Source of the DNA: Clostridia bacterium
GTDB lineage: Bacteria; Bacillota; Clostridia; TANB77; CAG-465
DNA: 64,000 nucleotides
Direction: 5' to 3'
Assembly (NCBI GenBank): GCA_030524345.1
Contig: JAUNGP010000002.1
Location: 62,001 to 126,000, forward strand
The stretch's first letter is position 1. Every line of letters starts with the position of its first letter. The position numbers and the translations under genes were made by a program. The notes under the pieces were generated by a model. That model did not search any database. It had not been told where the DNA came from and worked only from the letters and a program-made list of their open reading frames with translations. Shown here one piece after another: positions 57,889 through 58,353 of the stretch.

Positions 57889-57917
57889 TTGACATCGTTG
57901 CAACGATGTAATATAAT
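57889..57917 (+). promoter_or_regulatory. promoter with 16-bp palindromic operator, copy 1
   Basis: TTGACA, 17-bp spacer, TATAAT. The perfect palindrome CATCGTTGCAACGATG (57893-57908) overlaps the -35 box and fills the spacer, an ideal repressor site. An almost identical element lies at 58325-58353. Confidence 0.85.
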
Positions 57918-57944
57918 ATAAATATAGTAAGGGAGGTGATAATA

Positions 57945-58061
57945 TTGCTAAAGTTACTATTTAAGTTCTTAAAAAGAACCGCCAAAAAAGAGTCTACTCG
58001 ATCATGGGCTGAAAGAGTAGACAGATGGATTGAAGAGGACTTCGGAAAAAGCTCTTACTAA
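57945..58061 (+). CDS. 38-residue small protein
   Basis: TTG start with GGGAGGTGA upstream, just behind the operator promoter. The sequence begins MLKLLFKFLKRTAKKESTR and ends with an acidic amphipathic part (WAERVDRWIEEDFGKSSY). It could be a small membrane-active or protein-binding peptide. A strong hairpin terminator follows (58072-58101). Confidence 0.6.
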   Translation: MLKLLFKFLKRTAKKESTRSWAERVDRWIEEDFGKSSY

Positions 58062-58069
58062 AATCCACA

Positions 58070-58104
58070 GAGAAAGAGAATATCTCTTCTCTTTCTCTAT
58101 TATA
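58070..58104 (+). terminator. strong hairpin after the 38-residue gene
   Basis: AGAGAAAGAGAA pairs with TTCTCTTTCTCT across a 6-nt loop; the following sequence is AT-rich but not a pure T run, so partial readthrough into the next gene is likely. Confidence 0.65.
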
Positions 58105-58136
58105 TTATTTAATATTTAAATTGTCAAGGAGGCGAT

Positions 58137-58328
58137 ATTATAAAAAAATTTGATGAAAAACAATATAAAATAGACTATGATAAGAAACATTATACATTTA
58201 TATCTTTTAAATTAAAAAAGAAAGAAGCATTAAAATTTAAAGAAAATTTAAAACGTGAAAATATTAGTATTACTGATTTTTTTAAAAAATGTATTGAAAA
58301 TTATAAAGAAATTTTAAAAAAGTATTGA
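58137..58328 (+). CDS. ribbon-helix-helix DNA-binding protein, likely repressor
   Basis: About 63 residues. The beta strand HYTFISFKLKKKEALKF is followed by two helices (FKENLKRENISITDFFKKCIENYKEIL), the classic ribbon-helix-helix pattern of Arc/CopG/MetJ proteins. AAGGAGG precedes it, but no ATG, GTG or TTG lies in frame; ATT at 58137 or ATA at 58140 would start it, or the start has mutated. Its stop overlaps the second operator promoter. It probably binds the palindrome on both sides of itself. Confidence 0.65.
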   Translation: MIKKFDEKQYKIDYDKKHYTFISFKLKKKEALKFKENLKRENISITDFFKKCIENYKEILKKY

Positions 58329-58353
58329 CATCGTTGCAACGATGTAGTATAAT
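58325..58353 (+). promoter_or_regulatory. promoter with 16-bp palindromic operator, copy 2
   Basis: TTGACA, 17-bp spacer, TATAAT, with the same palindrome at 58329-58344. One base in the spacer differs from copy 1. Confidence 0.85.

Follow-up and report, generated by a model that had tools for sequence, protein, structure and literature searches.

A prophage in the genome of a gut Clostridia bacterium carries a small gene for a putative repressor of the ribbon-helix-helix (RHH) type, which is flanked by two promoters with an identical palindromic operator. We put the probability at roughly 0.87 that its product is a phage Arc/CopG-type autorepressor that uses the two operator promoters to control an accessory operon as well as the gene for a peptide, a reading drawn from comparative sequence evidence. 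Comparison of related loci demonstrates, at the level of sequence, the layout itself, its recurrence, and the match between residues of the protein and the operator core. We therefore consider it very probable that the locus switches phage accessory genes in a self-limiting manner; the region around it resembles an anti-CRISPR locus. Positions below refer to the window, the whole 64,000-nucleotide stretch of DNA that was analysed, unless another contig or locus is named.

Two promoters sharing one operator

The cassette comprises the following features:
57889–57917, + strand: promoter P1 (TTGACA-17-TATAAT), with the operator at 57892–57909 in its spacer
57945–58061, + strand: open reading frame for a 38-residue basic peptide, TTG start, with a relative in genome G007
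58069–58098, no strand assigned: hairpin between the peptide and RHH genes (–15.9 kcal/mol, z –5.2)
58099–58127, – strand: antisense promoter between the peptide and RHH genes, a perfect TTGACA-17-TATAAT
58137–58328, + strand: putative RHH (Arc/CopG-like) repressor gene, ATT start, TGA stop, 63 codons
58325–58353, + strand: promoter P2 (TTGACA-17-TATAAT), with the same operator as P1 at 58328–58345

An earlier note on this DNA had described two promoters 436 bp apart with TTGACA, TATAAT and a palindrome in common, and both prove exact: each scores 12/12 with a 17-nt spacer, at that separation, and together they flank the 38-residue frame and the RHH-like gene. The sequence CATCGTTGCAACGATG is present in two mismatch-free copies (57893–57908 and 58329–58344), against a chance expectation of 0.06 with up to three mismatches allowed. 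The full operator is a perfect 18-bp palindrome, ACATCGTTGCAACGATGT, situated between the –35 and –10 boxes of both P1 and P2, which places an inverted-repeat operator in the core promoter of the RHH gene's own operon. A search for the operator elsewhere in the phage had been proposed as a check, and a scan of the entire 1.7-Mb genome, again allowing three mismatches, found the site at P1 and P2 only. DNA looping between the operators was considered and rejected: P1–P2 distances range from 240 to 456 bp with no helical phase evident by eye.

The contents of the interval are as previously described insofar as the 38-residue and RHH frames are both present, but the RHH frame possesses no ATG, GTG or TTG start. 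Alignment places its start at the ATT at 58137, where relatives have ATG, and its TGA stop sits within the –35 box of P2 (T-TGA-CA). In loci L183–L208 the –35 box of P2 tends to lie at one of three distances from the RHH stop, about –1, +10/11 or +20/22 bp. Because the start codon is ATT, the protein may be produced weakly; AUU can serve as an initiation codon, as in infC. The window's operator and RHH start were also sought in viral contigs and were not found there, leaving no second copy against which to check the ATT. Together with the frameshifts in the AP2-type and integrase genes described below, the ATT start may reflect decay or an assembly error.

The predicted structure of the protein (AlphaFold2, mean pLDDT 91) has ribbon-helix-helix topology, with an extended segment at residues 18–26 followed by helices at 27–39 and 44–53. 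Foldseek returned a CopG–DNA complex as the sole, weak match (E 8.2), and VIA-align placed residues 17–60 onto CopG 1–44 with a Z of 3.7. The outward residues of the β-strand are F20, S22 and K24, which the alignment sets on Arg4, Thr6 and Thr8 of CopG, where Arg4 and Thr6 touch bases and Thr8 the backbone (PMC8251345). Against Pfam and NCBIfam no cut-off was reached, DUF6290 and NikA-like families scoring weakly below it, and a PDB sequence search with the RHH profile found no RHH entry.

Recurrence of the layout among relatives

A protein search within the family identified a relative with 67% identity in genome G027, whose gene lies between two promoters with another palindrome, ACATCA(C/T)GTACATGATGT; the strand residues of that protein would be expected to favour ACATCATGTACATGATGT. 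Because G027 showed flanking palindrome promoters, a paired-promoter DNA pattern was run, giving 40 loci per collection, mostly unrelated tandem promoters, and yielding L118, with two copies of ACTGTCGACAGT, and L090, with ACATATTGCGCAATATGT. Searches with protein profiles, first through 385 genomes of the order, then through one genus and finally through the class, supplied many further RHH loci. The profiles contained members first spotted by their operators; the searches scored protein only, and the choice of profile was not blind. The resulting set holds 30 RHH loci defined by protein similarity, the window included.

A promoter with a perfect 12-bp palindrome in its spacer occurs at 25/30 of these loci, compared with 4/443 control tiles taken elsewhere within the same loci and 1/600 shuffles. 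Two promoters sharing one near-palindrome were present at half of them (15/30), compared with 0/443 tiles and 0/600 shuffles. Several loci have one operator only, and two of the 30 (L184 and L200) have no convincing operator. The palindrome itself varies from phage to phage, and in many of the mapped phages the cassette adjoins lysin or holin genes.

When viral contigs were scanned with the RHH protein or with alignments of it, no close relatives emerged, alignment A5 being too diverse for this purpose, and tblastn against phage records gave none. Searching viral contigs for a single operator site produced mostly chance matches but led to L018 and L038, which carry a tandem pair of wider-family RHH genes (L018 9549–10078); here ACATCACGTAAAAGATGT lies inside a promoter pointing away from the first RHH gene. 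In genome G024 (L184/L056), an RHH gene of the family adjoins a CRISPR array, with a single slightly altered repeat past the array and a truncated lysin-like end immediately following the array.

Operator cores covary with outward strand residues

Three outward strand positions (a, c and e) were picked from the comparison of the window with G027 and recorded before any statistics. Across the 30 loci, with overall identity removed, operator core and outward strand residues are correlated with a partial r of 0.57 (permutation P 1e-4, a guide rather than an exact probability, because the loci share ancestry), and columns e, a and c rank first to third using a partly hand-curated operator table. 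Automatic operator calls gave a similar result (27 loci, r 0.58, P 2e-4), although the call for L198, kept in the analysis, is visibly a wrong palindrome. When the automatic set was thinned to below 70% identity (19 loci, r 0.42, P 2e-4), column e still came first, while c and a fell to fourth and fifth. The inward positions b, d and f showed no covariation (r –0.07 and –0.15). Operator specificity thus follows the outward residues of the strand over the 30 loci and not those that face inwards.

Individual pairings illustrate the pattern: strand residues R-L-D occur with CTCGTACGAG, R-Y-D with CCGTACGG, R-V-D with TGTACA, and Q-R-N with TGCA cores. The window's own pair, F-S-K with GTTGCAAC, is unique within the set, its nearest counterpart being Q-S-K with GTTTAAAC. 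The proposal that the RHH protein recognizes the palindrome is therefore strongly supported, by comparative evidence, through this covariation and the recurring twin-operator layout, and the window protein is the well-favoured candidate for the palindrome's binder.

Peptide, cargo and repeat-like units

The peptide of the window and its G007 relative have KEST..W..VD.W in common. More widely, a short frame of 29–43 residues lies 5′ of the RHH gene at 18/32 loci listed (L184, L090 and L182 not counted); these peptides form a few families, which are exchanged among RHH types. Most kin with a peptide also have a hairpin and an antisense promoter (TTGATT-17-TATAAT) between the peptide and RHH genes, cases that are not independent because of shared ancestry. 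The antisense promoter and hairpin could point to an antisense RNA directed at the mRNA of the peptide.

Downstream of P2 lie:
58524–58760, + strand: 78-residue acidic cargo protein, 45% identical to the G055 cargo in the matching place
58777–59451, + strand: AP2-type gene, frameshifted, with an intact 221-residue relative 3′ of the cassette in G201 (L189)
59459–59660, + strand: first CRISPR-repeat-like unit (promoter 59459–59487; repeats at 59508, 59560 and 59611; terminator 59636–59660)
59764–59959, + strand: second CRISPR-repeat-like unit (promoter 59764–59792; repeats at 59816 and 59889; terminator 59937–59959)

The cargo protein contains, by our own count, about 20 D/E and 11 K/R residues, and matches nothing in Pfam or PADLOC. 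G027 and G339 have another acidic cargo in common (39%), for which a C. difficile phage gives a distant match. Neither the window peptide nor the cargo matched a toxin family. The AP2-type gene, frameshifted in the window, is intact in G201, G055 and G339. Further along, 60163–61092 encodes a 309-residue membrane protein, a relative of which directly follows the cassette in G007 (L185).

In the repeat-like units (59508–59917), 19–26 of 30 positions are identical to the I-B repeat of the host. The earlier note had proposed that the repressor switches the accessory genes upstream of the mimic RNAs and that the downstream inhibitor may be RNA. Direct control of the repeat-like units finds no support, as the operator is absent from the promoters at 59459 and 59764. 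The units are probably expressed from their own promoters and not via the RHH repressor. Because no terminator is predicted on the + strand between 58353 and 59636, the first unit could be coupled to the switch, solely via read-through from P2. A CRISPR-repeat-like stretch was also considered in L118, but no G339 repeat array matched it.

A prophage matched by host spacers

Two features define the setting:
57108–57148, + strand: attL core (tRNA-Glu 3′ end and flank), about 40 bp, repeated at contig C17:159849
33741–36341, – strand: host type I-B CRISPR array of 40 repeats, repeat GTTTAACTTTAACATAAGATGTATTTAAAT

Since the tRNA-end repeat recurs at C17:159849, the prophage integrated at tRNA-Glu is about 40.7 kb long, and the window ends inside it. 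The cassette has the attachment site on one side and the endolysin/holin genes on the other. The prophage also encodes a 305-residue CI/LexA-like repressor, and its integrase gene is frameshifted near the TGLR motif (L213, about 14190), near two protospacers.

The contig that bears the prophage has a type I-B cas set, recognized by eye from gene order and protein sequence, with cas genes that look intact. Two spacers of the array correspond to the prophage integrase, at 34231–34266 with 0 mismatches and at 33971–34005 with 1 mismatch; the protospacers are L213 13924–13959 and 14025–14059, with PAM CCG/CCA. A third spacer, from a second array, has 1 mismatch to the prophage, and weaker matches occur at 5–7 mismatches, every match having a 5′ CCN. 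Among the controls there was no match within 8 mismatches. CCA is described as the consensus PAM of C. difficile I-B (PMC10732046). Binning error was dismissed as the source of the two integrase matches, array and prophage being on one contig. Three explanations are possible for the persistence of the prophage despite matching spacers: the CRISPR system is inhibited, it is inactive, or the prophage has escaped it.

Proposed mechanism and alternative explanations

We propose that an RHH dimer of the Arc/CopG type would read ACATCGTTGCAACGATGT and, because the operator sits between the –35 and –10 boxes, would when bound exclude RNA polymerase from both P1 and P2. P1 would drive the 38-residue peptide together with the repressor's own gene, and P2 the acidic accessory protein together with the AP2-type gene. 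On infection, both promoters would fire until the repressor has built up and shuts them off, which would produce an early pulse of expression like that under Aca control of anti-CRISPR operons. We infer the repression, the timing of the pulse and the action of the cargo against host defence from this arrangement. The odds that the cargo is counter-defence are about even; an anti-CRISPR reading is plausible given the AP2-type gene, the degenerate I-B repeat copies and the three matching host spacers.

The palindrome might be bound by another regulator, either a phage CI-type repressor or a host factor, with the RHH gene between the sites by accident. The prophage does encode the CI/LexA-like protein, and HTH repressors commonly have palindromic promoter sites; this is nonetheless very improbable, as the operator core tracks the outward RHH strand residues beyond overall identity, the RHH gene is enclosed by twin sites at 15 of the 30 loci, and the site is found nowhere else in the prophage. 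The cassette might also be a toxin-antitoxin module, in which the basic peptide is a toxin restrained by the RHH protein or an antisense RNA and the twin operator reflects antitoxin autoregulation. We regard this as quite improbable: the second operator promoter serves unrelated cargo, toxin family searches gave no match, and the peptide families swap between RHH types, whereas a protein toxin would have to fit its antitoxin. The conserved small peptide families 5′ of the RHH gene, the conserved antisense promoter and hairpin, and the frequency of the RHH fold among antitoxins are what speak for such a module.

It is also conceivable, if unlikely, that the cassette is a decayed relic with a broken RHH start, AP2 gene and integrase, in which the promoters are constitutive and no regulation occurs in this lysogen. 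The ATT start and the two frameshifts fit such decay, but the two operators retain full 18-bp palindromic symmetry and nothing else interrupts the RHH frame; moreover, AUU is able to initiate, and frameshifts in metagenome assemblies can be errors.

Comparison with known systems

The likening of the locus to acr-aca control in the earlier note is apt, in that lysis genes adjoin it, an AP2-type gene lies in the module and host I-B spacers are directed against the prophage. As with Aca1–10, a small phage-borne protein, here a probable autorepressor, is combined with an inverted-repeat operator in the core promoter and putative anti-defence neighbours (PMC9410906). Phage Aca proteins are, however, described as helix-turn-helix (HTH) proteins (PMC9410906; PMC8708921), whereas the window protein has an RHH-like domain in place of the HTH domain of a described Aca family, is flanked by two operator promoters, and belongs to an operon with no validated acr gene. 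It is Aca-like in its proposed role and not an Aca member; no RHH-type Aca was found in the open-access papers searched. As regards linkage to a proven acr gene, the AP2-type gene and the self-targeting spacers are suggestive only.

Reg_p576 of pLS20-family plasmids is likewise an RHH repressor that controls its own promoter and several anti-restriction/establishment promoters, and its authors compare that control to anti-CRISPR regulation (PMC8708921). It differs in belonging to a conjugative plasmid and in having dual heptamer operators 5′ of the –35 box, as opposed to the spacer palindrome of the window. Arc of phage P22 and the plasmid protein CopG are RHH autorepressors whose β-strand residues read the operator, and the Arc operator of phage P22 lies between the –10 and –35 boxes of Pant; unlike the window, these systems have a single operator region and other cargo, and their sequence identity to the window protein is very low.

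Type I-B hosts also harbour the C. difficile phage AP2 loci of the AcrIB2 study, in which AP2-type and small acidic genes lie by the endolysin; acr loci frequently contain AP2-type genes, and AP2 is a suspected Aca in the published C. difficile phage locus (PMC10732046). No RHH gene was found in those loci, in contrast to the window, and AcrIB2 is a different protein from the window cargo. A near-palindrome, ATAAACG..AACGTTTAT, is common to the spacers of the promoters on either side of the AP2 gene in JD033 and CD1801 (L234 2469 and 3638; L235 2066 and 3162), which makes AP2 a possible autorepressor in these phages. The identification of the JD033 gene after AP2 as AcrIB2 was not borne out, phiCD38-2 not being among its matches. 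The repeat-like units, finally, recall the RNA anti-CRISPRs known as Racr and solitary repeat units in resembling the host's own I-B repeat and in having strong promoters (PMC10651486), but they contain 2–3 degenerate repeats each and have no operator.

Significance

A broader reading, to which we give an even chance, is that the family represents an order-wide RHH counterpart of Aca in gut Clostridia phages, with a residue-to-operator code (for example, Asp with GTAC and Asn with TGCA), twin operators and exchangeable anti-defence cargo. The same reading, held with equal reserve, would have the cargo timed beside lysis genes, and a prophage that survives the spacers and encodes copies of the host repeat. 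If correct, RHH proteins would join HTH proteins as regulators of phage anti-defence regions, and the twin-operator signature would offer a means of searching gut Clostridia, in which few such genes are known, for new anti-CRISPR or other counter-defence genes. The dozen or so natural strand/operator pairs would constitute a test bed for the DNA specificity of β-strands, and the host I-B spacers that match the prophage with a CCN PAM would make the anti-CRISPR question directly testable.
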